Below the pieces are notes generated by a model, which worked only from the letters and a program-made list of their open reading frames with translations, had not been told where the DNA came from and did not search any database. Both the position numbers and the translations under genes were made by a program. A stretch of DNA of 64,000 nt from Pedosphaera sp. GTDB taxonomy: Bacteria > Verrucomicrobiota > Verrucomicrobiia > Limisphaerales > Pedosphaeraceae. Location: the NCBI GenBank assembly GCA_028293325.1, contig JAQGPA010000014.1, forward strand, positions 1 to 64,000. Reading direction: 5' to 3'. Each line of letters starts with the position of its first letter. The first letter of the stretch is position 1. Positions 17,692 to 42,454 of this stretch are shown one piece after another.

Positions 17692-18963
17692 ATGAAGAAA
17701 CGACTCAAGAATCGAAATCATCTAAAAACGGTTGGGGCCTGTTGTGGTGTGGTGGTCGGCAGCATCGGAGCCGTACATGCGGACACCATGCCCACAATGG
17801 AAGAACTCCAAAAAGAAAACCTGGAGATGCATCGCCGGCTGGACACCTTGGAAGCCTTGGCCCAGAAAGAGGGGCTCCTTCCCAGTGGCACCGCGCCGAA
17901 AATGGTTTCAGCGTTGTCCGATCTTAGTATCAGCGGCTTCGTGCAGGCATCCTACTTCTACAATTTGAACCGGCCGGCCGATAATAAATCCGACGGTTAC
18001 CTGTGGAACACCACCCACAATTCCTTTTCAATCAACAAAATCAAGCTGACCCTCGCCAGTCCGCCGGTGGAGCACAGCGGTGAAAATTGGAGTGCCGGTT
18101 ACCGCTTCTCCATGATTTGGGGCGAGGATTCTCCGGTGTTGAACACGGGCAGTCCAAGCCCGGGATTCGAGGCATTGCGCGAAGCCTATGTGGAGCTCAA
18201 CGTTCCCATCGGGACCGGTTTGGATGTCAAAGCGGGGCAGCTGATCTCGCTGTTGAATTTTGAATCCGGCGACGGTGGCGCGGCGAATCCCAATTTTTCG
18301 CAGGGCTTCCAATGGTTTTACACCGGCAACGGCCCCTCGGCGGGCGTGCAACTGGCTTATACCTTTACCGACAAGGTGGACGCCAAAGTTCGGGTGCAGA
18401 ACGGCCTCTACGGCGGCCCGGTGGATGTGAACAGCGCCAAGACGGTCATGGGCAGCCTTGACCTCAAGCCGGACGATAAAACCTGGATCAATTTGATCGG
18501 CTTCGGCGGCGACGGCGTGCCGGTCAGCAAGACTTTGATCGGCGGCTCGATCCTGGCCGGACGGAAGTTCACCGACAAAATCGGCACGGGCTTCGAATTC
18601 GACTACTTCCACTTCGACAACAAACCGGCACCGAATGCCGACTTGTGGTCCATTGGCGGATGGATTTGGTACGACTTCACGCCCAAGGTCGGGGTCGCGT
18701 TCCGCGCTGAATTCCTCGATGATCCGGACGGTTTCGGGATCAAGGGTGTCGGATTGCCCGGGGCCAGCCGTGCCGGCAGCGCAATTCTTTCGCCGGATGC
18801 CAATGGCAATCTCTCCAGTTTCACTGTCACGCTGAACCTGAAACCCACGCCGAACATCAAAATCCAGCCGGAAGTGCGGTATGACCATACCTCCTACACC
18901 GGCGGATTCGATGGCAAGAAGGACCGTGTGACCATAGGTGCCGGTGTCTCTTATCTCTTTTAA
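17692..18963 (+). CDS. Outer-membrane beta-barrel porin (BBP2/OmpL-like)
   Basis: A 423-residue exported barrel. The N-terminus has a basic, hydrophobic signal peptide ending near VHA-DT, followed by a short coiled coil (MEELQKENLEMHRRLDTLEA) typical of trimeric porins. Amphipathic strands follow through to a C-terminal aromatic strand (VTIGAGVSYLF), the usual signal for barrel insertion. It is the first gene of the urea operon and most likely lets urea or short amides cross the outer membrane. Specificity is inferred from position alone. The closest description is the putative beta-barrel porin-2 group. Confidence 0.85.
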   Translation: MKKRLKNRNHLKTVGACCGVVVGSIGAVHADTMPTMEELQKENLEMHRRLDTLEALAQKEGLLPSGTAPKMVSALSDLSISGFVQASYFYNLNRPADNKSDGYLWNTTHNSFSINKIKLTLASPPVEHSGENWSAGYRFSMIWGEDSPVLNTGSPSPGFEALREAYVELNVPIGTGLDVKAGQLISLLNFESGDGGAANPNFSQGFQWFYTGNGPSAGVQLAYTFTDKVDAKVRVQNGLYGGPVDVNSAKTVMGSLDLKPDDKTWINLIGFGGDGVPVSKTLIGGSILAGRKFTDKIGTGFEFDYFHFDNKPAPNADLWSIGGWIWYDFTPKVGVAFRAEFLDDPDGFGIKGVGLPGASRAGSAILSPDANGNLSSFTVTLNLKPTPNIKIQPEVRYDHTSYTGGFDGKKDRVTIGAGVSYLF

Positions 18964-19012
18964 CCAACCCTCAATTCAAAATTCATCCACAAATTAAACC
19001 AAAAATAAAACC

Positions 19013-20221
19013 ATGAAAAAATATCTGATTACTCTCGCTGTCTGCGCCACCACCCTGGCCGGAAGCCTGATTGGCCGCGCAGAGGACACCGTCAAAGTCG
19101 GCATTCTGCATTCACTCAGCGGCACGATGGCCATCAGCGAAACGTCGCTCAAGGACGTGCTGCTGTTTACCTTCGATGAAATCAACGCCAAGGGCGGCGT
19201 GTTAGGCAAGAAAATCGAACCGGTCATTGTGGATCCTGCATCCAATTGGCCGTTGTTCGCGGAGAAAGCCGAGCAATTGCTGGTCAAGGACAAGGTGGCG
19301 GTGGTGTTCGGCTGCTGGACTTCGGTCAGCCGGAAATCGGTCCTGCCGGTGTTCGAGAAATACAACGGGATGCTGTTCTATCCCGTGCAGTATGAGGGCG
19401 AGGAATTGTCGAAGAACATCTTCTACACCGCCGAAGCAGTCAACCAGCAGGCCATTCCGGCAGTGGATTACATGCTTGCCGACGGGAAGAAGAAATTCTA
19501 CCTGCTCGGCTCGGATTACGTCTATCCGCGAACGACCAACAAGATTCTCAAGAAATATTTGAAGTCCAAGGGCATTCCGGACGCGGATATTGTGGAGATC
19601 TACACGCCGTTCGGACATACGGATTACCAGACCATTGTGTCGGAAATCAAAAAGTTCTCCGCCGGCGGCAGCGCCTGTGTCATCAGCACCCTGAATGGCG
19701 ACACCAATGTGCCGTTCTTCAAGGAATTCGCCAATGCCGGCCTCACCTCGGAAAATTGCCCGGTGGTTTCCTTCAGCTTGTCGGAAGACGAATTCCGCAG
19801 CCTGCCGACGAAGGACCTCGTCGGTCACCTCGGCTGCTGGACCTATTTCATGTCCTTGGACACGGCGGAAAACAAGGTGTTCGTGGCTGATTTCAAGAAG
19901 TGGCTGGTGACCGCTCCGTCCGGCGTGGAAAAGAAAAACCGCGTGACCTGCAGCCCGATGAACCTCTCGCGGACGGGAGTTTATCTCTGGAAACAAGCGG
20001 TCGAGAAGGCCGGTTCCTTTGACGTGGACAAGGTGCGCGAAGCTCTCTACGGACAGAAATTCAAGGCGCCGGAAGGTGAAGTGACGATGCAGGAGAACCA
20101 TCACCTCATCAACCCGGTGTTCATCGGCGAGACCCAGGCTAATGGCCAGTTCAAAATCATCAAGTCGCTCGGACCGGTCGCGGGTGAACCGTTCAGCGAT
20201 AAATTCCTCGGCAAGGATTAA
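19013..20221 (+). CDS. urtA: Urea ABC transporter, substrate-binding protein
   Basis: Periplasmic urea-binding protein of the branched-chain amino-acid/urea (HAAT) family. The signal peptide ([20 protein letters not shown]) is followed by the family start [17 protein letters not shown]. Diagnostic stretches are [47 protein letters not shown] and the C-terminal [16 protein letters not shown]. It lacks a lipobox Cys, so it should be free in the periplasm. It lies between the porin and the permease gene, and is separated from the permease by a strong hairpin that probably allows more binding protein than membrane subunits. Confidence 0.97.
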
Positions 20222-24776: not shown

Positions 24777-25628
24777 ATGAGTTTGCTGGCCACCAAAACG
24801 GAGACGCCGCGAGTCCGTGCCGGACGCGGCCATCTGGAAGTCAAAGTCGTTTCCGGCCAGAGCGCGGCAACCTCGGCTGGCGCGACCAGCCCGTTAAAAC
24901 TGCTGATTCCACGTCCCCGCGGACCAAGCGTTTGGGCCTACCTGAGCAGCTTTGGCGGCGGACTCGTCGCAGGAGATGAAATCAGCCTTAATATTGATTT
25001 GGGTGAGCAGGCGCGTTGTTTTGTCAGCACGCAGGCTTCGACCAAGGTGTATCGCAACCCTGATTCCCTGCCCTGCGGTCATCAACTCAAGGCGAATCTG
25101 GGCGGTGGTTCACTGCTGGTGCTCGCGCCCGACCCGGTGCAGGCCTATGCCGGTTCCCGTTACACGCAACGGCAGGAGTTTCATTTGCAAAGCGGCAGCG
25201 GACTGGTCCTGGTGGATTGGTTCTGTTCCGGTCGCGCCGCCTGCGGGGAGCGTTGGGCATTTAACCACTTTCAAAGCCGCAACGATGTATTCGTGGAAGG
25301 CAAACGCACCTTTATTGATTCGCTGTTGATTGATCCGACCGATGGGTCGCTCGAAAATTCCCAGCGCATGGGACGCTTTAATTGTCTGGCGCTCGTCTTG
25401 CTCATCGGCGAGCCGTTGCGGGCCGCCGCCGCCCGCATGCTGGAGGATGTGTCGGCCCAGAAGGTGGCGCGGCGGCCGTCACTCGTTTGCAGCGCCAGCC
25501 CCGTGGCGGGTGGCGTGTTGGTTCGATTTGCGGGTGAGCAGGTGGAAGCGGTGGGGCGGGAAATTCACCGGCATCTTGCCTTCCTCACCGAACTCTTGCA
25601 CGATGATCCCTGGTCCCGGAAATGGTAA
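24777..25628 (+). CDS. ureD: Urease accessory protein UreD
   Basis: Scaffold for nickel delivery to apo-urease, acting with UreF and UreG. The sequence has the UreD landmarks SSFGGGLVAGDEISL, CFVSTQASTKVYR and SGSGLVLVDWFCSGRAACGERW. 283 residues is normal. It is the first urease gene, as in many ureDABC operons, and follows urtE closely, so transport and hydrolysis genes are probably co-transcribed. Confidence 0.95.
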   Translation: MSLLATKTETPRVRAGRGHLEVKVVSGQSAATSAGATSPLKLLIPRPRGPSVWAYLSSFGGGLVAGDEISLNIDLGEQARCFVSTQASTKVYRNPDSLPCGHQLKANLGGGSLLVLAPDPVQAYAGSRYTQRQEFHLQSGSGLVLVDWFCSGRAACGERWAFNHFQSRNDVFVEGKRTFIDSLLIDPTDGSLENSQRMGRFNCLALVLLIGEPLRAAAARMLEDVSAQKVARRPSLVCSASPVAGGVLVRFAGEQVEAVGREIHRHLAFLTELLHDDPWSRKW

Positions 25629-25657
25629 CCACTGACAAATTAAAATCATAAATTTCC

Positions 25658-26422
25658 ATGCATCTCTCTCCTCGTGAAATTGACAAGCTCCTGCTGCACA
25701 ACGCCGGTTTTCTCGCCCAGAAACGGCTCGCGCGCGGCGTGCGGCTGAATTATCCTGAAGCCGTGGCGCTCATCGCCACGCAACTGCTGGAATTTATCCG
25801 CGACGGCCGCCGGGTGGCCGAACTCATGAATTTGGGCCGCCAATTCCTGGGCCGGAATCAAGTCATGTCCGGCGTGCCGGAAATGATTGCCGAGGTGCAG
25901 GTGGAAGGCACATTTCCCGACGGCACAAAACTGGTCACGGTGTATCATCCGGTCGCCTCCGAAAACGGTAATTTAACCCTGGCGCTGTATGGCAGTTTTC
26001 TGCCGGTGCCGGATGTTTCCGTTTTCAAACCGGATGCCGACGCAACCGAAGGCGAACCCGGCGCTTACCAGGTGCAGGAGGGTGAACTGGAATTGAATGG
26101 CGGTCGGGAAAGCATTTCCCTCGCGGTGACAAACCTTGGCGACCGGCCGGTGCAGGTCGGCAGTCATTATCATTTTATTGAAACCAACGCCCAGTTGCGA
26201 TTCGACCGGGAAGCGGCCTACGGGAAGCGGCTCGATATTCCCGCGGGCACGGCAGTGCGCTTTGAGCCCGGTGAGACGAAAACCGTGCGGCTGGTCGATA
26301 TTGCCGGCCAGCGGGTCATTCGTGGCGGCAATAACCTGGCCGATGGACCGGTTACTCCCGAAAATAAAAAAGCCACAATGGCGCGGGTCAAAGCGGCGGG
26401 TTTCGCCCATCAAAAGGATTAG
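25658..26422 (+). CDS. ureAB: Fused urease gamma-beta subunit
   Basis: A single 254-residue chain combining UreA and UreB. Residues 1-100 are the gamma subunit ([55 protein letters not shown]). After a linker of about 30 residues the beta subunit starts at [20 protein letters not shown] and includes [19 protein letters not shown] and a closing [12 protein letters not shown]. Fusion of these two subunits is known in Helicobacter and several other lineages. The gene ends two bases before ureC. Confidence 0.96.
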
Positions 26423-26424
26423 TC

Positions 26425-28140
26425 ATGGCACACAAAATGAAACGCTCCCACTACGCCGAGATGTTCGGACCCACAACCGGGGACCGGGTGAAGCTCGGCG
26501 ACACCTCACTCACGCTGGAAGTGGAGCATGACCACACGGTTTACGGCGATGAATGCAAATTCGGCGGCGGCAAGGTGCTGCGCGAAGGGATGGGCCAGGC
26601 GGCGGGCGTGGGCCAGGCCGAAGCGCTGGATTGCGTGATTACCAACGCGCTGGTGGTGGACCATACCGGAATTTACAAGGCGGATATTGGCATCAAGGAT
26701 GGATTGATTGCGGGCATCGGCAAGGCCGGCAATCCGGATGTGATGGCGGGAGTTACACCGGGAATGATTGTGGGTGTGACCACCGAAGTCATCGCTGGCG
26801 AGGGACAGATTTTAACGGCGGGCGGCATCGACACCCATATCCATTTCATTTGTCCGCAGCAGGCATTCGAAGCCATCGCGGCGGGCCTCACCACGATGGT
26901 CGGCGGCGGAACGGGACCGGCGACCGGCACCTGTGCGACGACCTGCACGCCAGGCGCGAATCATATTCGCATGATGTTGCAGGCGACGGATGCCTTGCCG
27001 CTGAATTTTGGTTTCACCGGCAAGGGCAACACGGCGTTGCCGGAAGGTTTGCCGGAACAAATTCTTGGCGGCGCCATTGGCCTCAAACTCCATGAAGATT
27101 GGGGCACGACACCCGCCGCGATTGATTGCTGCCTGCGCATTGCCGACGAATACGATGTGCAGGTGACCATTCACACGGACACGCTGAATGAATCGGGTTT
27201 TGTGGATGCCACCATCGCCGCGCTTAAGGGTCGCACCATCCACACGTATCATTCCGAGGGCGCGGGCGGCGGTCATGCGCCGGACATCATCCGCATTTGC
27301 AGTGAGCCAAATGTGCTGCCAAGTTCCACGAATCCGACGCGGCCGTACACGGTCAACACCATCGACGAACATCTGGACATGCTGATGGTCTGCCATCATC
27401 TCGATGCCAGTCTGCCCGAGGATGTGGCGTTCGCCGAAAGCCGCATTCGCGGTGAGACCATCGCGGCGGAGGATATTTTGCACGACCTTGGTGCAATCAG
27501 CATGATGAGCTCCGACTCGCAGGCGATGGGGCGCATCGGTGAAGTCATCACGCGGACCTGGCAGACGGCGGACAAGATGCGCCGCCAGCGGGGTGCTTTG
27601 CCGGGTGAGCAGCGCGGCAACGATAACTTGCGCATCAAGCGTTACATTTCCAAATACACCATCAATCCGGCCATTTCGCATGGGATGTCGCATCTAATCG
27701 GCTCGGTGGAAGTGGGGAAACTTGCCGATCTGGTGCTGTGGAAGCCGGCGTTTTTTGGAGCCAAACCGGAAATGGTGATTAAGGGCGGCATCATTGCGTG
27801 GTCACAGATGGGCGATCCCAATGCCTCGATCCCGACGCCGCAACCAGTGTTCATGCGGCCAATGTTTGGGGCTTTTGGCGGCGCGGCGGGGCCCATTTCC
27901 ATCAGCTTCGTGAGCCAGCTCTGCAAGGAGAAGGGAACTGTGGCGGGTTATGGATTGACCAAGCGCATCGAGGCGGTGCGCGGTTGCCGCAACATCGGCA
28001 AAAAGGACATGAAATGGAACGATGCCACGCCGGGCATCACAGTGGATCCCGAGACTTATGAAGTGAAAGCCGACGGCGAATTGCTGGTTTGCGAACCGGC
28101 CAAGGTGCTGCCGCTCGCGCAACGCTATTCACTTTTCTAA
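26425..28140 (+). CDS. ureC: Urease alpha (catalytic) subunit
   Basis: Nickel metalloenzyme subunit hydrolysing urea to ammonia and carbamate. All active-site signatures are present: nickel His138 and His140 in [10 protein letters not shown], the carbamylated lysine Lys221 in [11 protein letters not shown], the [10 protein letters not shown] and [14 protein letters not shown] His-bearing loops, and the flap motif MVCHHLD with its mobile Cys. 571 residues is standard length. It is the central gene of the ureD-AB-C-F-G cluster; the next start codon is five bases after its stop. Confidence 0.98.
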
Positions 28141-28144
28141 CGCT

Positions 28145-28879
28145 GTGTTTGCGCGCCTTCAAAATTTGTCTTCGGTCCCGCCGTTTGCCGGTGCGGCAAA
28201 TGCCGAAGCAGGAACAAAAGAGGGATGGCTGCTGTGGCAATTGGCGGATTCGGCGTTTCCAACGGGAGGTTTCGCGCACTCAGGCGGAGTTGAGGCCGCG
28301 TGGCAGCATGGTGAATTGCGGAGCAGCGCGGAATTGGAAGCCTTCACCGAAGCCAGCCTGGATCAGTTTGGACACAGTTCCCTGCCCTTCATGCTGGCGA
28401 CGCATGAGAGTCCGGAAAAGCTCACTGAGTTGGACGAGCTGTGCGAAGCCTTTACCACCAACCATGTGGCGAATCGCGCCAGCCGACTCCAGGGACAAGC
28501 ATTGCTGTCATCGGCGGAGCGCATTTTTTCTTTGCCCTCACTCAAAGAGTTAAGGCACTCCGCCGGGCATCAACCGCCTTACAGCCATCTGGCGCCGGTT
28601 TTTGGCGTGGTAACCCGCGCGCTTGAAATCAGCCGCGAACCGGCGTCCCGCTTATTTTTCTTTTTACATTTACGGGGATTACTGGCGAGCGCGGTGCGAC
28701 TGGGCATTGTGGGGCCAATGGAGGCGCAGACAATGCAACAGCGACTGGGAACGCGGGCGGAAGCCGTGTTGGTTCGCTGCCGCGAATTGTCAATCGACGA
28801 AATCGCGCAGACGGCGCCGCTGCTCGAAATTTGGCAGGGGGCGCAGGACCGGTTGTATTCCCGGTTATTTCAAAGCTGA
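28145..28879 (+). CDS. ureF: Urease accessory protein UreF
   Basis: Accessory protein that regulates the UreG GTPase during urease activation. The family start [20 protein letters not shown] appears after a 27-residue leader, because translation is taken from a GTG at 28145; an internal start closer to that motif is possible but no in-frame ATG is available. [14 protein letters not shown] and [20 protein letters not shown] are further UreF landmarks. 244 residues. Confidence 0.93.
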
Positions 28880-28893
28880 AAACGAAAGAGACT

Positions 28894-29625
28894 ATGAGCA
28901 TGGGTCATCATCACGAGCATGGGGCCAACGGCCACACGCACGAACACCTGGATCATCCCGGACATTTTCAAGATCGCGAAAAAGCCTTGTCGCGCGACTT
29001 CAGCCAGCGCGCGTTCACCGTGGGCGTGGGCGGTCCCGTGGGCAGCGGCAAAACCGCGCTCATGCTGGCCTTGTGCCAGAAACTGCGGCACCAGCGGAAC
29101 ATCGCCGCAGTGACCAATGACATTTTTACGAAGGAAGATGGGGAATTCCTTATCCGACATGAGGCCTTGGCAGCGGAGCGAATCCGCGCGGTAGAAACCG
29201 GCGGTTGCCCGCATGCGGCGATACGCGAGGATATTTCGGCGAATTTGCTGGCCTTGGAGGAACTGCACCGCCGATTTAACACAGAGTTGCTGCTGATTGA
29301 GTCAGGGGGCGACAACCTTGCTGCGCATTTCAGCCGGGAACTGGCGGACTTTACCATTTACGTGATTGATGTTGCCGGCGGGGACAAGGTGCCGCGCAAA
29401 GGCGGCCCGGGCATCACGCAATCCGATCTCCTGGTGATCAACAAAACCGACTTGGCCGAGGCGGTAGGCGCGGACCTAAGCGTGATGGAGCGCGATGCCC
29501 ATGCCATGCGCGGCGATGGACCAGTCATCTTCGCACAAGTACGGCATGGCAAAGGTGTGGACGCCATCCTGGACCAGGTCATTCACGCCTGGCAACACGC
29601 CACGGCAAAACCGCACGCACACTGA
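28894..29625 (+). CDS. ureG: Urease accessory GTPase UreG with His-rich N-terminus
   Basis: SIMIBI-class GTPase that hands nickel to urease. The P-loop is [33 protein letters not shown] carries the Cys-Pro-His metal site, and [15 protein letters not shown] carries the NKxD base-recognition motif. The ATG at 28894 ([18 protein letters not shown]) is preferred over the longer frame from 28831. It opens with a histidine-rich tail of about 25 residues, containing eight His, that UreG of enteric bacteria lacks. Because no ureE is present, this tail may hold nickel in its place. It is the last urease gene of the cluster. Confidence 0.96.
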
Positions 29626-30058: not shown

Positions 30059-31027
30059 ATGACGACTAAAACAACTAACAAGCATTTGAAATTAAACTCC
30101 CCCTTGAAACTGGGATTGAACTGGGCCTTGGCGGCCACTGCCATTTTTTCGGCAGCGGCCTTGCCAGTGATGGCCGAAGATGCCCCGCCACCCAAGGTGC
30201 ACATTTTAGCCGACCTGGAATTTGCCAATGAATACCTGACCCCGCGCGGTCTCATTGTGGTGAATCAGGGGTTGACCATCCAACCGCTGGTGCTGGGCCT
30301 GGTGAATGTTTACAAGGGCGATTCTTTTATCAATGACGTGACGCTGGTACCCGGCGTCTGGGCCGATCTGGCGACCGCAATCAATGGACCGCGTCCGGGC
30401 TTTGCCTATTCCGTGCCGGTGACCGGCCAGAACTCCAAAGGCTACCTGAATGAAATTGATCCCATTCTTGGCGTCAGCACCACGTTCGCGAAGGATTACA
30501 CGCTGAGCTTCACGTACACGGCCTTCATCAGCCAGCTTGGGGAATATCCCACCTCGCAACATCTGGAAACCAAGTTTACCTACAACGACAGCGGCATTTT
30601 GAAAGCGTTTGCGTTGCATCCCACGGTCATTTACTGGCAGGAACTGCGCAACAAAGCCACGGTGGGTCCCATCGCCGGGAACCGCACCGGTGGTTACTTT
30701 GATCTGGGCATTTCACCCGGTTACACCTTTGAGAAGGCCGGCCATCTGAAGGTGGAACTGCCCATCCGCACTTTAATTCCCGTCGATGACCGGTTTTACG
30801 GCCGTTCCGGCATTGGATTGTACGAAGTGGGAATCAAGGGAACCCTGCCCCTCGACTTTATGCCAAAGGGCTATGGCGGCTGGAGTTTCCATGCGGGCGT
30901 CAAGTATATGCGCTTTCTGAACGACAACCTGATCACCATGAATAATTCCGGATTCCTGGCCGAGCCGCCCGGCAGCCACAAGAAGGATACGGTGCAGGTC
31001 TATGCAGGCATCTCCACCTTCTTTTGA
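30059..31027 (+). CDS. Predicted outer-membrane beta-barrel protein
   Basis: A 322-residue exported protein. A long basic N-terminus and hydrophobic stretch (LGLNWALAATAIFSAAALPV) form a signal peptide cleaved near MAEDA. The mature part alternates short amphipathic strands (HILADLEFANEYLTPRG, YTLSFTYTAFISQLGEY, GYFDLGISPGYTFEKAG) and ends VQVYAGISTFF, a barrel-closing strand with terminal Phe. It has no N-terminal coiled coil and is not similar to the urea porin. It heads the BMP-type transporter operon, so it probably serves as that system's outer-membrane channel. Family name not recognised. Confidence 0.75.
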   Translation: MTTKTTNKHLKLNSPLKLGLNWALAATAIFSAAALPVMAEDAPPPKVHILADLEFANEYLTPRGLIVVNQGLTIQPLVLGLVNVYKGDSFINDVTLVPGVWADLATAINGPRPGFAYSVPVTGQNSKGYLNEIDPILGVSTTFAKDYTLSFTYTAFISQLGEYPTSQHLETKFTYNDSGILKAFALHPTVIYWQELRNKATVGPIAGNRTGGYFDLGISPGYTFEKAGHLKVELPIRTLIPVDDRFYGRSGIGLYEVGIKGTLPLDFMPKGYGGWSFHAGVKYMRFLNDNLITMNNSGFLAEPPGSHKKDTVQVYAGISTFF

Positions 31028-31058: not shown

Positions 31059-32171
31059 ATGAAAACCATTTTACGTTCATTTTTCATCACCGTGGCGGGC
31101 TTCGCGGTGGCCGCGAATCTGCTCGCGGAAGATGCCAAAGTTGTCGCCGGGTTCATTTATGTCGGCCCCAAGGACGACTACGGCTACAACCAGGCGCACG
31201 CGGAAGGCAAAATCGGCGTTTCCAAACTCGCCTGGGTCAAGAGCGTTGAGGAAGCCAGCGTGCCGGAAACGACCGCCGTGCAGGAAACCATGCGCAACAT
31301 GATCAACCTCGACGGGGCGACCATGCTGTTCCCGACTTCGTTTGGATATTTCAACCCCCACATTCTGAAAGTGGCCAAGCAATATCCCAAAGTGCAGTTC
31401 TTCCATTGCGGTGGTCTTTACACCGAAGGCAAGGACCCGAAAAACGTGGGCAGTTACTTTGGTTACATCGACGAAGCCGAATATCTCTGCGGCATTGTGG
31501 CGGCCTACACCTCGAAATCCGGCAAACTGGGATTCATTGCGGCCAAGCCGATTCCCCAGGTCTTGCGCAACATCAACAGCTTCGCCCTTGGCGCGCTGAG
31601 CGTGAAATCAAATATCACCGTGCAAGTCGTGTTTACGGGTGATTGGTCCATGCCGGTGAAGGAGGCGGAATCCGCCACCAGCCTGATTGATCAGGGCATC
31701 GATGTGCTCACCTGCCATGTGGACAGTCCCAAGGTGATTATCGAGACGGCGGAACGGCGCGGGATTTATGTCTGCGGTTACCACGCCAACGGCGCGGCGC
31801 TCGCGCCCAAGGGCTATCTCACCGGCGCGGAATGGGATTGGACCAAGGTCTATTCCGATTACGCCACCTGGGTGAAAGAGGGCAAGAGCCTGTCCGCCGG
31901 CACGATTCCGCACCTGATTCGCGGTGGTTTGAAGGATGGCTTCGTGAAATTGTCGCCCTACGGACCTGCGGTCAGTGACGAGGCAAAGAAGGATGCCGAA
32001 GCTGCCAAAGCCAAGTTCATGGATGGCACCATGGTCGTTTACAAGGGGCCGCTCAAGGACAACACCGGCAAAGTGGTGATCCCCGAGGGCACGGAAATGA
32101 AACAGCAGGACATCAACCTGGAAAAGATGGACTGGCTGGTTGAAGGAGTTTTGGGCAGCACCAAGAGTTGA
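31059..32171 (+). CDS. BMP-family ABC transporter substrate-binding protein
   Basis: Periplasmic binding protein of the basic membrane protein (BMP, PnrA-like) family, which normally binds nucleosides and related ring or ureido compounds. The signal peptide is at residues 1-23 with no lipobox Cys, so the protein is soluble. Family features are VAGFIYVGPKDDYGYNQAHA, FPTSFGYFNPHILKVAKQYP, NVGSYFGYIDEAEYLCGIVA, GKLGFIAAKPIPQVLRNINS and YVCGYHANGAALAPKGYLTG. It is followed by a large hairpin and the permease genes. The ligand is inferred from the operon to be a biuret-like or ureido compound; this is not shown by sequence. Confidence 0.93.
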   Translation: MKTILRSFFITVAGFAVAANLLAEDAKVVAGFIYVGPKDDYGYNQAHAEGKIGVSKLAWVKSVEEASVPETTAVQETMRNMINLDGATMLFPTSFGYFNPHILKVAKQYPKVQFFHCGGLYTEGKDPKNVGSYFGYIDEAEYLCGIVAAYTSKSGKLGFIAAKPIPQVLRNINSFALGALSVKSNITVQVVFTGDWSMPVKEAESATSLIDQGIDVLTCHVDSPKVIIETAERRGIYVCGYHANGAALAPKGYLTGAEWDWTKVYSDYATWVKEGKSLSAGTIPHLIRGGLKDGFVKLSPYGPAVSDEAKKDAEAAKAKFMDGTMVVYKGPLKDNTGKVVIPEGTEMKQQDINLEKMDWLVEGVLGSTKS

Positions 32172-32280: not shown

Positions 32281-33405
32281 ATGCCCGTTGAAACCGAACA
32301 AACCACCGCCGCCGTCCAATCGGTCGCATTGCCTGCCGCCAAGCGAGGGTTCAAACTCCCCGCCAACTGGCGCAACGGTGCGGAAGCGATAGTAATGCCG
32401 GTTGCGGCGGTGACTGTGGCTCTGGCATTGTTCGGCGTGTTCTGCACGCTGCAGGGCGCGAATGCATTTTCGGTTTATGCCGCCATCAACCGCGCGGCGT
32501 TTGGCAGTTGGTATTCCTTTCAAAACACATTATTGCGCGCTGCGCCGCTGATGTTGGCGGCGCTCTGCACCGCCTTGCCCGCGCGGTTGGGGTATGTGGT
32601 GATCGGGAACGAAGGGGCGCTGGTTGTGGGCGGGCTTGGCGCAGTTGCCGCCGGCTTGCTGGTGGCCACTTGGCCGCCGTTGCTGGTGCTTACCGCGATG
32701 GCCGTAACCGGGATGATTTGCGGAGGACTTTGGATCGCGACGGTGGGCGCGTTGAAATATTATCGCGGCGTCAACGAAACCATCAGCAGCCTGCTGATGA
32801 ATTACATCGGCATCGCCTTGCTGAAATATCTCGTCAATGGCCCGATGAAAGACCCGAGCAGCCTGAACAAACCTTCGAGCTACCCGATTGCCGATGAAAA
32901 CATGTTGCAGCCGATTCCCGGCACGAACATTCACTGGGGTCTCGCATATGGAATCGTTGCCTGCCTGATTGCGTGGTTTCTCATGGAGCACACCACCTTT
33001 GGATTTAAAGCCAAGGTGATTGGCGGCAACATCCGCGCGGCGCGCATCGCCGGATTGTCCGTGGGCGCCATCAGCTTGATCACCTGTTTTCTGGGCGGCG
33101 CGGCGGCGGGCCTGGCCGGCATGGTTGAAGTGGCGGCGGTGCATGGACGCGCCAATGAATCGCTCAACGCATTTTACGGTTACAGCAGCATTCTGGTGGC
33201 GTTCGTCGCGCGTCAGCACGGGTTCGCCACCATCCTGGTGGCGACATTGCTGGGCGGCATCCTGGCCAGCGGCGGCATTTTACAACGCAACTTTCAACTG
33301 CCGGACGCGACGATCCTGGTTTTTCAGGGCCTGGTGTTCCTGGTGATTCTGTTCAGTGATTCGTTGTACGGAAAGTTCCGCATTTTTCAGGAGCAAAAAG
33401 CATGA
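32281..33405 (+). CDS. ABC transporter permease, nucleoside/ureido (BMP) type, subunit 1
   Basis: A 374-residue membrane protein with about nine or ten helices. YYRGVNETISSLLMNYIGIALLKY, GFKAKVIGGNIRAARIAGLS and FYGYSSILVAFVARQHGFAT are typical of the BMP-associated permease family (NupP/YufP type). A cytoplasmic N-terminus of about 35 residues precedes the first helix. Its TGA overlaps the ATG of the 57-codon gene that follows. Confidence 0.92.
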   Translation: MPVETEQTTAAVQSVALPAAKRGFKLPANWRNGAEAIVMPVAAVTVALALFGVFCTLQGANAFSVYAAINRAAFGSWYSFQNTLLRAAPLMLAALCTALPARLGYVVIGNEGALVVGGLGAVAAGLLVATWPPLLVLTAMAVTGMICGGLWIATVGALKYYRGVNETISSLLMNYIGIALLKYLVNGPMKDPSSLNKPSSYPIADENMLQPIPGTNIHWGLAYGIVACLIAWFLMEHTTFGFKAKVIGGNIRAARIAGLSVGAISLITCFLGGAAAGLAGMVEVAAVHGRANESLNAFYGYSSILVAFVARQHGFATILVATLLGGILASGGILQRNFQLPDATILVFQGLVFLVILFSDSLYGKFRIFQEQKA

Positions 33406-33575
33406 AAACAACCACTGCCAGTTACGTGGACTTCAATAAATTTTGCCGGAGTGGACAAAACCGCGATTTGCTGACCAATCATGACTGGCAACGCAACGTG
33501 CAGTTTTTAACTGCGGCGTGCGAAGCAAACCAGTTGCGCGCGGGCCGCGCGACCAAACCGGTGAGGCGTCGATGA
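33402..33575 (+). CDS. 57-residue protein of unknown function, coupled to both permease genes
   Basis: A complete small frame, MKTTTASYVDFNKFCRSGQN... ending ...RATKPVRRR. Its ATG overlaps the stop of the first permease gene (ATGA at 33402-33405), and its TGA overlaps the start of the second permease gene (ATGA at 33572-33575). It fills the space between them exactly, which is hard to explain unless it is translated. The protein is basic, soluble, has two Cys (15 and 40) and no membrane helix. No family is recognised. It may be a small subunit, assembly factor or regulator of the transporter, or simply a coupling device. Confidence reflects the geometry only. Confidence 0.6.
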   Translation: MKTTTASYVDFNKFCRSGQNRDLLTNHDWQRNVQFLTAACEANQLRAGRATKPVRRR

Positions 33576-34547: not shown

Positions 34548-35231
34548 ATGACCACACGTTTTGTTAAATCCGATCCCTACCCTTACCCTTTCAACGGCGA
34601 CCTCCGGCCCGATAACACGGTGCTGCTCATCATCGACATGCAGACCGATTTTTGCGGTTACGGCGGTTACGTGGACAAAATGGGCTACGACCTCTCGCTC
34701 ACCCGCGCGCCCATCGAGCCGATTAAACGCGTGCTGACGGCCGCGCGCGCCAAGGGTTATCACGTTTTCCATACGCGCGAGGGGCATCGGCCGGACCTCG
34801 CCGATTTGCCGGAGAACAAGCGTTGGCGCAGCGCGCGCATCGGCGCGGGCATTGGCGAGAAAGGACCGTGCGGACGCATTCTAATTCGCGGCGAGGCGGG
34901 TTGGGACATCATTCCCGAACTCGCGCCGTTGCCGAATGAACCGGTCATCGACAAGCCTGGCAAGGGCTCGTTCTACGCCACTGATCTGAATTTGTTGCTC
35001 CAGCGACGCGGCATTCGGAACATTGTGCTTACCGGGATCACCACCGATGTGTGCGTGCACACGACGATGCGCGATGCCAATGATCGCGGTTATGAATGTC
35101 TCCTGCTCTCCGACTGCACCGGCGCGACCGATTACGGAAACTATCTCGCCGCATTGAAAATGATCCAGATGCAGGGCGGCGTGTTTGGCACGGTCACGGA
35201 ATCAAAGCATTTTATTGAAGCCATCCAATGA
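34548..35231 (+). CDS. biuH: Biuret amidohydrolase-like cysteine hydrolase (isochorismatase fold)
   Basis: Isochorismatase-fold amidohydrolase, 227 residues. From memory it resembles the biuret hydrolase BiuH/TrzI group closely through most of its length ([72 protein letters not shown]). The catalytic triad is visible as Asp30, Lys136 and Cys169; these gaps (106 and 33 residues) match those I recall for BiuH. The expected reaction is biuret to allophanate plus ammonia. The gene lies inside the transporter operon, between a permease and the ATPase, and its stop overlaps the ATPase start. A related ureido or carbamoyl substrate (as for RutB) is the main alternative. Confidence 0.85.
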
Positions 35232-36775
35232 TCATCAGTGACATTGAAAATTCGGCGCAGCGGCTGGGTCCGCCGTCGCTGGAATTGGTGAACATCACCA
35301 AGCGATTTGGCACGTTCACCGCGGTGGACAAGGTGTCGCTGAAAATTCCGCCCGGCACGTTCCACGCATTGCTGGGCGAGAATGGGGCGGGCAAGAGCAC
35401 TCTCGTGAAGTGCATCATGGGTTTCCATGCCGCGGATGAAGGGGACATCATCGTCAACCAGCATTCCCGGGAAATCCGCAGTCCGTATGATGCGTATAAA
35501 CTCCGCATCGGAATGGTCTATCAGCATTTCACATTGGTGCCTTCGATGACGGCGGCGGAAAACCTGGTGCTTTCGCGTTCGGATACGCCGGCCGTGATTA
35601 ATTGGAAGACGGAATACGCGCGGCTGGACGAGTTTATGCGGACCGCGCCGTTCCAGGTCGATTTGCACACACCTGCCGCACAACTGGCCGCCGGGCAAAA
35701 GCAAAAGGTGGAGATTCTCAAGCAGCTTTATCTCAAGAGCCGGTTGCTCATCCTGGATGAACCCACCTCTGTGTTGACGCCCGTGGAAGCGGATGAAGTG
35801 CTGGGATTGCTCAAGCAGATGGTGAAGGAGGGCAACCTGAGCGTGCTGCATATCACGCATAAATTCAAAGAGGTGATGGCTTTTGCGGATGAAATCACAG
35901 TTTTGCGGCGCGGCAAATTCGCGGGACGCGGCGCGGTGAAGGACCTCACGCCCGACGACATGGCAACCATGATGATGGGTGAACAACGCACGGCCAAAAC
36001 CGTCGAGCGCGCTTCGCAGAGCAAGGGCAAGGCGGTGATTGAGGTCAAAGGAATTCGGGCGGATCGCGACAATGGCCTGGAAGCAGTGCGCGGAGTGAAC
36101 CTGACAGTGCATGCGGGTGAGATTGTGGGCATCGCCGGCGTCTCGGGCAACGGGCAGCGGGAATTGGTGGAGGTACTCGCCGGACAGCGCGAGGCGACGG
36201 CGGGCGAGGTGGTGTTGCACGGGGAAGTTTATTGGGGCACACGCGGGGAGATGTTCGAACACCAGATTTTTTCACTGCCGGAAGAACCGTTGCGCAATGC
36301 CTGCGTGCCGCAAATGAGCGTGGCGGAGAACCTGGCCTTGCGAAACTTCGACCGGGCGCCGATGACCCGCGCCAAATGGGTTTTGAACCGGCGCGCCATG
36401 CGGGTGGCGGCGGACCAGTCCATCGCGCGGTTCAACATCAAGACCCGTTCGGCAGACACACCGATTGGCGATCTTTCCGGCGGCAACGTGCAACGCGCCG
36501 TGTTGGCGCGCGAACTCTCCTCCGGCACAGCCAAGGCGCTCATCGTGGCCAATCCCTGTTTTGGATTGGATTTTGTAGCGGTCGATTTCATTCACTCCCA
36601 AATTCTCGCGGCACGAAATCGCGGCGTGGCGGTGTTGTTGATTTGCGAGGATCTGGACGAGTTGCTGGAGCTCGCCGACCGGCTGGTCGTGATTTCCAAC
36701 GGTTCCTTTGTCTTTGAGGGGCCGGCGGCCAATGCGGATATCAAGATGCTCGGCCAACATATGGCCGGACATTAA
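35228..36775 (+). CDS. ABC transporter ATP-binding protein (two cassettes, BMP type)
   Basis: A 515-residue ATPase with two ABC cassettes in one chain, as in nucleoside/BMP importers (NupO type). Cassette 1 has [33 protein letters not shown] and [19 protein letters not shown]. Cassette 2 has [33 protein letters not shown] and a degenerate Walker B ([13 protein letters not shown]), the usual asymmetry in this group. It starts within the hydrolase stop codon, so transport and hydrolysis are translationally coupled. Confidence 0.95.
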
Positions 36776-36900: not shown

Positions 36901-37311
36901 ATGAACACTGACGCATCAAAGCCCGGCAACAGTGCGGTCCCACCGCCCATGCGCATTGGGGCGCTGCCGCCGATTGTGATAAATGATTTCATTGCCCTGG
37001 CTGGGCGCGCGGAAGGATTGCGCTGGGAGCCGTTTCTGGATGGGGTGGATCGGCATTGGATTTACCGCGCGGATGAGGATGGGCCGGCTTGCGTGTTGAT
37101 TCGCTTTCAACCGGGCTCGCGCGTGCCGCTGCATGAGCATGTGGGGTATGAGCACATTTTTGTTTTGAGCGGTTCACAGTCGGACAAGAACGGCACCCTC
37201 AAGGCCGGGAGCATGGTCATTAACCTGCCCGGCACGCGACACAGCATTGTGAGCGAAGAAGGCTGTTTCGTGCTGGCCATTTATGAAAAGAAGGTTCGCT
37301 TTCTGGAGTAG
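36901..37311 (+). CDS. Cupin-domain protein (ChrR-like)
   Basis: A 136-residue single-domain cupin. Motif 1 is GSRVPLHEHVGYEHIFVLSG (two His and a Glu for metal) and motif 2 is LPGTRHSIVSEEGC with its His. The N-terminal 20 residues are flexible. Cupins of this kind sit in many catabolic operons as metal-dependent enzymes or substrate sensors. It lies 125 bases after the ATPase gene and 17 bases before the allophanate-hydrolase-like gene, so it belongs to the same unit. Its activity is unknown. Confidence 0.85.
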   Translation: MNTDASKPGNSAVPPPMRIGALPPIVINDFIALAGRAEGLRWEPFLDGVDRHWIYRADEDGPACVLIRFQPGSRVPLHEHVGYEHIFVLSGSQSDKNGTLKAGSMVINLPGTRHSIVSEEGCFVLAIYEKKVRFLE

Positions 37312-37328
37312 CACCAAGGACTGAAATT

Positions 37329-37727
37329 ATGATCAAGGAAACGGGCATGGTTTTGCTGGCGGTTAACGGAACACTGATGCGCGGTTTGGAACTGAATCCG
37401 AATTTGCTGAATGTGGGCGCGAACTTCGTGGAGGAAACCAGCACGGAACCGGCCTATCGCATCTGGTCAATTGCCGACCGGCATCCGGCCATGCAACGAT
37501 TTGCGACGGGAGGCGTTTCAGTGGCGGTGGAAATATGGGCAGTGCCGCCAGCAGGATTGGCCACGATTTTACAGCAGGAACCGCCGGGTTTGAGCATCGG
37601 CAAGGTAAAACTCGCCGACGGGCGGGAAGTGCTGGGCGTGTTGGGAGAAGCCATTCTGTGCGAAGGGCGGACAGAAATCACGCGCTGCGGGGGCTGGCGG
37701 GCTTACATTGCGGATAAGCCAAAGTAG
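37329..37727 (+). CDS. Stand-alone allophanate hydrolase C-terminal domain protein
   Basis: A 132-residue protein that matches the C-terminal domain of allophanate hydrolases (AtzF/DUR1,2 type), including the LAVNGTLMRGLELNPNLLNV start, a YRIWSI turn, GGVSVAVEIWAVPPAGLATI, and a GGWRAYI end. In the full enzyme this domain acts after the amidase, decarboxylating the N-carboxycarbamate intermediate. Here the amidase domain is absent and no amidase gene is in the window. It ends the operon that contains the biuret hydrolase-like enzyme. It could decarboxylate a product of that enzyme, or work with an amidase encoded elsewhere. Confidence 0.8.
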   Translation: MIKETGMVLLAVNGTLMRGLELNPNLLNVGANFVEETSTEPAYRIWSIADRHPAMQRFATGGVSVAVEIWAVPPAGLATILQQEPPGLSIGKVKLADGREVLGVLGEAILCEGRTEITRCGGWRAYIADKPK

Positions 37728-38687: not shown

Positions 38688-38716
38688 TTGACTTGAATAA
38701 GTTCGAGAGCTATGAA
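38688..38716 (+). promoter_or_regulatory. Sigma-70-type promoter of the molybdenum hydroxylase operon
   Basis: TTGACT (38688-38693), a 17-base spacer and TATGAA (38711-38716), about 30 bases before the ATG at 38747. Confidence 0.5.
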
Positions 38717-38746
38717 GGTAACCATCAACTTCCTTATACGCGTTGT

Positions 38747-39403
38747 ATGAATGAATCAGAGCCTGCAAAGATCGGTCCCTTTTCCCGCCGCACATTTCTC
38801 AAGAGCTTGGGCACGACTGCGGTCGCTACCGCCGCAGTGCAAGCCCAAACCATGGCGGCGGAATTAGAGAAGGTTAACGCCGAAAAAACCATTGGTCCGG
38901 GCACGGTACCCGTCACGCTGAAAGTGAACGGGGAAATGCTCAAACTGCAACTGGAGCCACGCGTCACCCTGCTGGATGCATTGCGCAATTATTCAAGCCT
39001 GACCGGTTCGAAGGAAGGTTGCGATCGCGGCACCTGCGGCGCCTGCACGGTCATGATCAACGACGTGCCGGTTTACTCGTGCATGAAACTGGCCATTGAG
39101 GCGCAGGGACAGGCGATCACCACGGTTGAAGGCTTGGCAAAGAACGGCAAATTGACCAAGGTGCAACAGGCTTTTCTCAATCGGGACGCATTAATGTGCG
39201 GCTATTGCACGCCGGGATTTGTGATGAGCGTGACGGCGTTATTGAGGAAGAACCCGCATCCTACGGCAGATGATGTGCGCCACGCCTGTTCCGGGAATCT
39301 TTGCCGGTGCGGCACATATCCGCGCATCATGGAGGCCGCCTTTGAAGCTTCCGGCGTGGCGAAAGTGGCAATCAACAAGACGGAGGTAATTCCTTATGCC
39401 TGA
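38747..39403 (+). CDS. Periplasmic molybdenum hydroxylase, 2Fe-2S subunit (PaoA-like)
   Basis: Small iron-sulfur subunit of a xanthine-oxidase-family enzyme, 218 residues. A twin-arginine signal (SRRTFLKSLG, residues 13-22) directs the folded complex to the periplasm, as in E. coli PaoA. The first 2Fe-2S cluster is held by Cys92, Cys97, Cys100 and Cys112 (GCDRGTCGACTVM...YSC), the second by MCGYCTPGF and CSGNLCRCGTY. The frame is also open from 38693, but the ATG at 38747 gives a proper Tat signal and follows the promoter. The gene overlaps the large-subunit gene by eight bases. Confidence 0.93.
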   Translation: MNESEPAKIGPFSRRTFLKSLGTTAVATAAVQAQTMAAELEKVNAEKTIGPGTVPVTLKVNGEMLKLQLEPRVTLLDALRNYSSLTGSKEGCDRGTCGACTVMINDVPVYSCMKLAIEAQGQAITTVEGLAKNGKLTKVQQAFLNRDALMCGYCTPGFVMSVTALLRKNPHPTADDVRHACSGNLCRCGTYPRIMEAAFEASGVAKVAINKTEVIPYA

Positions 39404-41495
39404 TCCAGCAAATCTCAGTTGGCCGAAGGAAACGAAGTATATCAGCAAAAGCACGCATCGTGTCGATGCGGCGCAAAAATTGACGGGTAAGGCGCGGTAT
39501 TCCTCGGATATCCAGGCCGAAGGCTGGCTTTATGGCATGATTTTGCGGTCGAAATGGCCGGCGGCAAAAATCACGAACATTAATTTGGAGAAAGCGCTGC
39601 AGATTCCTGGAATCAAGGCCGCCATTCTGATCAAGGGCAACGAGCGGACCGTCCGTTATTACGGAGACGAAATCGCGGCGGTGGCGGGCACGACCAAGAT
39701 TGCCTGCCTGGATGCCTTGAAGGCCATTGAAGTGACGGCGGAACCGCTGCCATATGTCGTCCACGAGGATGAGGCCAAAAAGCCTGACGCCCCCAAGGTT
39801 TGGGACGATGCGCCCAATCTTTCGAAGCCGAAGGTCACGGAGAAGGGCGAAGTGGACAAGGCGTTCAGCGAATGCGCGACGGTTGTGGAGGGATTTTACA
39901 CGACACAGGTGCAATTGCATCATCCGATGGAGACGCACGGCAACACGGTGTCGTGGACGGACGAAGGCCTGACCGCCTACGCTTCGACACAGGGAATTAC
40001 CAGTGTGAAGGATGGTTTTGCTGGCAGCCTTCAGTTGGAACAAAGCAAGGTGCGGGTCATCACCGAGTACATGGGCGGTGGATTCGGCGCCAAGTTTGGC
40101 TCGGGTGTTGAAGGCAAGGCGGCGGCGGAGTTGTCGAAGGCGGCGAAAGCACCGGTGCGTTTGATGCTGACGCGCTTTGACCAGGGACTAGCTGTGGGAA
40201 ATCGTCCCTCCAGTTTTCAGAAAATAAAATTGGGCGCGAGCGCGGACGGAACTTTGCTCGCGTATCAATTGGATGCCTACGGCACAGCCGGTATCGGTGG
40301 CGGCGGTTCGTCCGAAGGCGGTGGTGGCGGGGCTAATTTTCCCGCGCCTTACATTTACCAGATTCCCAATACCCGCGTGAGCCAGGCTACAGTGGCCATT
40401 AATGCGGGTTCAGCACGGGCTTTTCGCGCGCCGGGAAATCCACCGGCGTCGTTTGGCATGGAATCGATCATGGACGATCTCGCGGTGAAGATGGGGATGG
40501 ACCCGTTGGAATTGCGGGTGAAGAATGATCCCAATCCAGTGCGCCAGAAGGAATATGAAGTGGGCGGCAAGCGCGTGGGTTGGAAGGAGAAATATAAGAA
40601 GCCTGGCAGTTCGCCCGGCGTCATCAAGACCGGCATCGGCTGCGCGAGCGGCTCCTGGGGCGGCGGCGGCAGCAAGAAAACACAGGGTGAAGCCCAGATC
40701 AACCCGGACGGCAGCGTGGAAATACGCATGGGGGTGCAGGATTTGGGAACGGGCACCCGCACGGTTTTGGCGGTGGTTGCCGCGGAAGTTTTTGGGCTCA
40801 AGCCGGAGCAAATCACGGTCAAGGTCGGCGATACGAATTATCCGCCGGGCCCGGGCAGCGGCGGCAGCACGACCTGCGCGTCCATTTCACCGACGGCACT
40901 GGACACCTGCACCAACGCTTTGAACGAATTACAAAAGCAGACCGGCGTGGCGGATGCGCGTGGCGAGAATTGGTTTGCCGCGTGCAAGAAGCTGGGCGTC
41001 ACCCCGTTGGTGGTGCAGGGCAAGTTCCAGGATGGCCTTTCCTCGCGCGGCGCGGGTGGTGTGCAATTTGCCGAGGTGGAGGTGGATACCGAGACCGGCC
41101 GGGTGACGGTGAAAAAGATGACCTGCATCCATGATTGCGGTTTAATCATGAATACGCTCACGCTGGAGAGCCAGATTTACGGCGGCACCATCATGGGGAT
41201 GGGGTACGCGCTTTACGAAGAACGCGTGATGGACAAGCTCTCGGGCGCGTTGCTGAACCCGAATTTTGAGACTTACAAATTGACCGGCTTGTCCGACATG
41301 CCGGAGTTCGACATCGTGCTGATCAACATGCCCGAACGCGGGGTGATCGGCATCGGTGAACCGTCAGTGATCCCCTCGGCATCAGCCATCGCCAACGCCG
41401 TGGCCAACGCCCTGGGCGTGCGCATCAACAGTCTGCCCATTACGCCGGCGAAAGTGCTGGCCGCGCTGGGCAAAATACCTGCTCCTGTATCATGA
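39396..41495 (+). CDS. Molybdenum hydroxylase, molybdopterin-binding subunit (PaoC-like)
   Basis: Catalytic subunit, 699 residues, of the xanthine dehydrogenase/aldehyde oxidase family. The N-terminal a/b hammerhead domain (VDAAQKLTGKARYSSDIQAE) is followed by the molybdopterin domains with EYMGGGFGAKFGSGVEGKAA, SARAFRAPGNPPASFGMESI, VQDLGTGTRTVLAVVAAEVF and the catalytic Glu in GIGEPSVIPSASAIANAVAN. The length and the organisation with a separate FAD subunit match PaoC rather than eukaryotic xanthine dehydrogenase. It probably oxidises aldehydes or heterocycles in the periplasm, and a molybdopterin-cytosine-dinucleotide cofactor is expected. The substrate is not determined. The next gene starts within its stop (ATGA). 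Confidence 0.93.
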   Translation: MPDPANLSWPKETKYISKSTHRVDAAQKLTGKARYSSDIQAEGWLYGMILRSKWPAAKITNINLEKALQIPGIKAAILIKGNERTVRYYGDEIAAVAGTTKIACLDALKAIEVTAEPLPYVVHEDEAKKPDAPKVWDDAPNLSKPKVTEKGEVDKAFSECATVVEGFYTTQVQLHHPMETHGNTVSWTDEGLTAYASTQGITSVKDGFAGSLQLEQSKVRVITEYMGGGFGAKFGSGVEGKAAAELSKAAKAPVRLMLTRFDQGLAVGNRPSSFQKIKLGASADGTLLAYQLDAYGTAGIGGGGSSEGGGGGANFPAPYIYQIPNTRVSQATVAINAGSARAFRAPGNPPASFGMESIMDDLAVKMGMDPLELRVKNDPNPVRQKEYEVGGKRVGWKEKYKKPGSSPGVIKTGIGCASGSWGGGGSKKTQGEAQINPDGSVEIRMGVQDLGTGTRTVLAVVAAEVFGLKPEQITVKVGDTNYPPGPGSGGSTTCASISPTALDTCTNALNELQKQTGVADARGENWFAACKKLGVTPLVVQGKFQDGLSSRGAGGVQFAEVEVDTETGRVTVKKMTCIHDCGLIMNTLTLESQIYGGTIMGMGYALYEERVMDKLSGALLNPNFETYKLTGLSDMPEFDIVLINMPERGVIGIGEPSVIPSASAIANAVANALGVRINSLPITPAKVLAALGKIPAPVS

Positions 41496-42454
41496 AGGCA
41501 TTTGAATACGCAACCGCACACTCCGTAAACTCCGCCCAGGAAATGGTGGCGGACAACGGCCAATACATCGCGGGCGGCAACGATCTCCTTGGCCTCCTCA
41601 AAGAATATATCGTTGACCCGAAAATCCTGGTCAGCGTCAAATCGCTGCCTGGACTGGACCGCGTGGAAACCGGTTCCAAGGTCTGGACCATCGGCACCAA
41701 TGTGACGGTGGCGCAGATTGAGGACCATTCAGCCATCCGGAAGACCTTTCCCGGACTGGCGCAAGCCGCGGCGGAGGTGGGCTCGCAACAGATTCGCAAC
41801 GTGGCCACGGTGGGTGGAAACATTTCGCAACATTCCCGCTGCTGGTATTTCCGGCATCGCGACGTGCTTTGCCTGAAGAAGGAAGGCGATATGTGTTATG
41901 CGCGGCATGGCGAGAATAAATATCACAGCCTGTTCACGGGGAACACGTGCATCAGCCCGGTGGTGTCGAATCTGGCGATTGCGTTTGCGGCGTTGGATGC
42001 CACGGCGGTCGTGCAGCGCGCGGGCAAGCCGGTGCGCATGAGCATGGCGGAGTTTTACGCGAAGGCGTTTGAGAATCCGACGGCGCACAATTCGCTAAAC
42101 CCGGGGGATTTGGTGTTAAAGGTTGAGATTCCGACGACGCGGACCCACAGCGCCTACATGCAGACGAGCGAGAAGCATGAATTTGACTGGGCCCTGGTCA
42201 GTTGCGCCGCGGCGGCGAACATTACGAATGGCAAGCTCAGCAATGCGCGCGTGGCGTTGGGAAGCATTTCACCGGTGCCGCACCAGGTGGATGCCGCAAA
42301 TGAATATCTGGAGGGCAAGACGCTGGACGAGGCAACGGTGACGCACGCAGCGGACATGATTTTGCATGGCGCAAAACCACATGAACACAACGGCTATAAA
42401 GTGCCGATGGCACATGCGCTGATCCGGCGCACGCTTCTTAAGCTGAACGCGTGA
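41492..42454 (+). CDS. Molybdenum hydroxylase, FAD/4Fe-4S subunit (PaoB-like)
   Basis: FAD-binding subunit, 320 residues. FAD motifs are YIAGGNDLLGLLKEY and IRNVATVGGNISQ. An inserted loop carries Cys117, Cys127, Cys135 and Cys153, the four-Cys pattern that holds an additional 4Fe-4S cluster in PaoB and 4-hydroxybenzoyl-CoA reductase. A C-terminal CO-dehydrogenase-type domain follows. It should pass electrons from the 2Fe-2S subunit to an acceptor. It has no signal of its own, consistent with export piggy-backed on the Tat-bearing small subunit. Confidence 0.92.
   Translation: MKAFEYATAHSVNSAQEMVADNGQYIAGGNDLLGLLKEYIVDPKILVSVKSLPGLDRVETGSKVWTIGTNVTVAQIEDHSAIRKTFPGLAQAAAEVGSQQIRNVATVGGNISQHSRCWYFRHRDVLCLKKEGDMCYARHGENKYHSLFTGNTCISPVVSNLAIAFAALDATAVVQRAGKPVRMSMAEFYAKAFENPTAHNSLNPGDLVLKVEIPTTRTHSAYMQTSEKHEFDWALVSCAAAANITNGKLSNARVALGSISPVPHQVDAANEYLEGKTLDEATVTHAADMILHGAKPHEHNGYKVPMAHALIRRTLLKLNA

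Follow-up and report, generated by a model that had tools for sequence, protein, structure and literature searches.

What is a 57-codon frame doing between the two permease genes of a BMP-type ABC transporter, and is it a gene at all? The frame lies in a stretch of 64,000 nucleotides from Pedosphaera sp. (hereafter the window). Small genes in operons are easily overlooked by annotation, and we analyzed this one by its junctions, its homologues and the gene cluster that surrounds it.

Results

The small gene is coupled to both permease genes and encodes a protein

A first-pass annotation had placed the frame between the permeases by ATGA overlaps on both sides, and the coordinates bear this out (Table 1). 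The frame runs from an ATG at 33402-33404 to a TGA at 33573-33575 and comprises 57 codons; permease 1 ends with the TGA at 33403-33405, and permease 2 begins with the ATG at 33572. We prefer this permease-2 start to the mechanically assigned GTG at 33518, because the orthologues align from residue 1. The sequence AGGAG is found 8 nt upstream of the small-gene ATG, and a GAGG resembling a ribosome-binding site is located 5 nt upstream of the permease-2 ATG, within the last codons of the small gene. The region overlaps with no Rfam family, and a search for an origin of the small gene as a piece of another cluster gene found none.

Table 1. Features of the small gene and the surrounding cluster (positions in the window)
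Feature	Position	Strand	Remarks
Urease genes	24777..29625	+	ureD by Pfam; ureAB, ureC, ureF, ureG from sequence
322-aa protein, no Pfam match, probably exported	30059..31027	+	cluster member in relatives
BMP/PnrA-like substrate-binding protein	31059..32171	+	PF02608, E 4e-41
BMP-type ABC permease 1, 374 aa	32281..33405	+	PF02653, E 1.5e-29
ATGA overlap, permease-1 stop / small-gene start	33402..33405	+	same overlap in RYN_620
Small gene, 57 aa, unknown family	33402..33575	+	pI 10.85
ATGA overlap, small-gene stop / permease-2 start	33572..33575	+	same overlap in RYN_620
BMP-type ABC permease 2, 308 aa	33572..34498	+	PF02653, E 1.2e-38
Biuret amidohydrolase BiuH	34548..35231	+	NF050097, 407 bits, cut-off 370
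ABC ATPase of BMP-type transporter; ATGA overlap with biuH	35228..36775	+	
Cupin	36901..37311	+	PF12973; cluster member in relatives
Stand-alone allophanate-hydrolase C-terminal domain	37329..37727	+	PF21986; cluster member in relatives

Among random 166-nt inserts of the same composition, ∼7% would be expected to form an open frame in the right length class, and the fit to both junctions in one genome alone is therefore weak evidence. The earlier argument that a chance frame would hardly fit both junctions carries little weight for a single genome, but it does carry once a second genome is considered. In Pedosphaera sp. RYN_620 (G001; contig shared with L046/L157), the sole other genome of the genus compared, this permease junction likewise holds a homologue of 57 codons, again with both ATGA overlaps. 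The two small genes share 49% protein and 59% nucleotide identity, and because frame and overlaps have been kept at this nucleotide divergence we regard the small gene as real.

The pattern of substitutions between the two genomes is that of a coding sequence. The dN/dS ratio of ∼0.34-0.43 (0.48/1.13 by NG86, 0.47/1.35 by maximum likelihood) lies below 1, as the first-pass annotation had anticipated for a real gene, and indicates purifying selection. Amino-acid identity exceeds a null with the same substitutions placed on random sites (P 0.0002), and under a per-site neutral model the observed score without a stop was reached in 15 of 5000 trials. The sense frame is the best conserved of the six, its interior included, and none of the other five is open in both genomes. 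By these measures the small gene is a genuine protein-coding gene under purifying selection. Constraint on the permeases is much stronger (dN 0.06-0.10, dN/dS about 0.04-0.13), and we thus consider the small protein fast-evolving; its codon usage is also weaker than that of its neighbors (0.05 versus 0.18-0.36). The initial observation, a 57-codon protein-coding frame joined to both permease genes, is confirmed.

The small gene resides in a biuret/triuret-urease cluster

A urea-type ABC transporter and urease genes are located just upstream of the BMP transporter genes (ureAB, ureC, ureF and ureG were named from sequence and are matched in RYN_620 and in G160, a genome from another family of the order). 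The hydrolase 3′ of permease 2 belongs to BiuH by the NCBIfam model, above its cut-off, and with this curated-level neighbor the probable substrate of the transporter is biuret, triuret or something related to them rather than a nucleoside. Relatives show the order OMP-BMP-p1-p2-biuH-ABC-second hydrolase-permease-cupin-AH_C. The second hydrolase of these clusters is a BiuH relative that scores below the NCBIfam cut-off and shows about 50% identity, the level reported for TrtA (PMC7948467). It adjoins the transporter ATPase or biuH in RYN_620 and most relatives, whereas in the genome of the window a second BiuH-like hydrolase (275 bits, possibly TrtA) is found on another contig (G000 contig C90, about 18814-19455, L159).

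Clusters of biuH and trtA with a BMP-type (bmpA-nupABC) transporter and urease are already known (PMC12625717, PMC7948467), among others in nitrifiers (PMC12625717). As in these, BiuH, a second isochorismatase-family hydrolase, a BMP transporter and urease share one neighborhood, although the second hydrolase, inside the cluster in most relatives, is encoded elsewhere in the genome here. The cluster is of the known biuret/triuret-urease type. It differs from the known biuH/trtA clusters in the extra 57-codon gene, the cupin and the stand-alone AH_C domain, with no full AtzF seen in the cluster. The stand-alone PF21986 domain adjoins the cupin in the clusters of relatives as well, where no AtzF amidase was seen beside it, and is possibly a decarboxylase of the pathway. 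The 322-aa protein (30059-31027) is conserved upstream of the relatives' clusters at 42-73% identity.

Most relatives join the permease genes directly

Twelve Pedosphaerales clusters with this transporter were compared. The small gene is found between the permeases in two (the window and RYN_620); ten lack it there, and in nine it is missing from the whole stretch read, which argues that the gene is not essential to the pathway. In the ten others the permeases are adjacent, often via a single ATGA, as in G283 and G160. Direct adjacency in related genomes had been named beforehand as an outcome speaking against the gene; it is seen in these ten clusters but not in RYN_620. A core subunit of a BMP-type ABC transporter would be present throughout the family, and the small gene is not; with the permeases of close relatives directly adjacent, the idea that BMP-type transporters generally include its product has to be abandoned.

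Since relatives join the permeases by one ATGA, the small gene gives the impression of an exact insertion into this junction, but its absence from relatives may instead reflect loss. In permease trees the window and RYN_620 form the sister group to the other Pedosphaerales clusters, a placement compatible with loss in most lineages as well as with two separate gains.

Wider searches returned no second copy in the own genome, no convincing copy in 388 draws from the phylum or 360 draws from the class, and no homologue in 80 permease loci, plasmids or viral contigs. The weak matches inspected, to the two-row profile (G154, G241, G313) and to the three-row profile (G826), run antisense or out of frame over larger frames and were judged to be chance; a further profile match lies in G791 (E 0.007 in one of 360 genomes). 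Cyanobacterial open reading frames located in longer gaps between the permease genes are unrelated to the small gene.

A third homologue precedes biuH

Searching 320 genomes of the order with the two-row profile, we located a single further credible match (G160, E 6e-5, corresponding to about 0.02 over the 320 genomes). The G160 homologue has 34% identity, and when it was compared with either of the other two members none of 5000 shuffles scored as high. It resides directly 5′ of biuH rather than between the permeases and has no obvious ribosome-binding site; in its TGATG overlap with biuH, stop and start codon have one base in common. The gene order is urt-ure-OMP-small-biuH-second hydrolase-permease-BMP-p1-p2-ABC-cupin-AH_C-ureG, and a chance match is unlikely given that the same kind of cluster surrounds the homologue. 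Because this copy precedes biuH, we associate the small gene with the biuret/triuret-urease cluster as a whole. The cluster is complete in the window and in G160; in RYN_620 it is split over two contigs, and biuH, absent from the contig with the small gene, would fall in the gap between them.

Comparison of the three sequences revealed 16 invariant columns. The small protein has the motif YVDFxxFxxxxQNxDLxxxxxWxxxV...RAxKP, of which the core YVDxxxFxxxxQNxDLxxxxxWxxxV is common to the homologues; the G160 protein keeps Y-V-D, Q-N-x-D-L and the tryptophan. The C-terminus is very basic, with the RAxKP tail conserved and a pI of 10.9-11.4 in all three members. The initial description as a basic, soluble protein of no recognized family stands (GRAVY -0.93, pI 10.85), whereas the two cysteines it mentioned are present but not conserved (Cys-15 and Cys-40 are both Ile in RYN_620). 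No family match was obtained in Pfam, NCBIfam, PHROGs or the PDB; hits to HutF_N (Pfam, E 0.14) and to a lysine aminotransferase (PDB, E 1.9) are at chance level. The structure predicted from inputs other than the G160 homologue is helical with modest confidence (pLDDT 67.7) and matches no PDB structure. The small protein is thus predicted to be basic, soluble and mostly helical, and by these comparisons represents a rare, previously undescribed family, known from three sequences, inside a known kind of operon.

Discussion

Our preferred, tentative reading is that of a lineage-specific small gene of the Pedosphaerales biuret/triuret-urea cluster, encoding a cytosolic accessory protein of uptake and hydrolysis. 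The gene would be translated in coupling with its neighbors, and its product would act in the cytosol as an accessory factor that binds a cluster protein, putatively BiuH or the BMP-type transporter at its cytoplasmic face; such binding could adjust or couple uptake and hydrolysis. The small gene is tied to a single kind of cluster, in which it occupies two different sites (three genomes, two families); this argues for a function in common with the cluster, and recurrence at two different coupled junctions favors a pathway helper rather than a purely structural part of the transporter. The small protein is therefore probably a helper of the biuret pathway and not a standard transporter part. 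That it belongs to an undescribed family which physically links or regulates BMP transporter and biuret hydrolase, has moved between coupled junctions and coordinates uptake with breakdown is a bolder proposal that we consider unlikely.

The high pI in all three members, the conserved RAxKP tail and the confinement to this cluster in three of three genomes would also suit a nucleic acid-binding regulator that controls cluster expression without contacting enzymes or transporter. This, too, seems an unlikely role: the protein matches no family known to bind DNA or RNA, a location inside transporter genes would be unusual for a regulator, and in two of the members the Arg/Gly codons may be imposed by the permease-2 ribosome-binding site that the last codons carry.

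AtzG is a small partner of the AtzE amidase in the s-triazine pathway, and the small protein resembles it in being small, soluble and encoded in an operon for biuret-type nitrogen compounds. The operon, atzDGEHF, has been described (PMC6219798). By analogy, and with one member (G160) directly coupled to biuH, the small protein could be an obligatory assembly partner of a pathway enzyme, with lineages lacking it using a self-sufficient enzyme; in size and operon setting the small protein and AtzG are alike. Neither Pfam nor NCBIfam holds a curated AtzG/GatC model that matches the protein, and no AtzE-like amidase is present among the cluster genes examined. The BiuH of the window is above the curated cut-off, as it is in genomes without the small gene, and since it scores alike there, BiuH gives no sign of needing a partner. 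We judge this possibility quite unlikely.

Since the frame is joined to both neighbors by exact ATGA overlaps and contains the ribosome-binding site of permease 2, it could be taken for a translated spacer along which ribosomes pass from the first permease gene to the second, the product having little function of its own. The single ATGA at the permease junction of several relatives and the fast divergence of the small gene when compared with the permeases would agree with this. Purifying selection on the small protein and the retention of its core by the G160 homologue at the unrelated junction before biuH make such a spacer improbable. A chance frame or functionless insertion remnant, to which the proportion of open random inserts and the lack of the gene in most relatives could be held to point, is already largely refuted, and most improbable, given the intact 57-codon frame in two diverged species and the third homologue in a cluster of this kind.

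Some transporters have small membrane partners, of the AcrZ and KdpF type. Our small gene is likewise tiny and translationally coupled to transporter genes. Such membrane regulators have a hydrophobic transmembrane helix; the small protein, in contrast, is hydrophilic and basic (GRAVY -0.93, pI 10.85), and no transmembrane segment is expected. If the small protein indeed binds the transporter, it would be the first partner of a BMP-type system known to us that is both small and soluble. Biuret and triuret are fertilizer-related nitrogen compounds. Selection on the gene, together with its reappearance at another junction in this kind of cluster, suggests that their use involves an accessory factor that has gone unnoticed, the general weight of which is limited by its rarity.

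Two further observations concern the neighborhood. Xanthine dehydrogenase-type genes (2Fe-2S-like, molybdopterin and FAD subunits; 38693-42454) lie 3′ of the cluster and may link it to purine breakdown. Orthologous BMP permease pairs with about 60-71% identity are present in many filamentous cyanobacteria (L046-L125), which suggests transfer of the transporter between cyanobacteria and Verrucomicrobiota.
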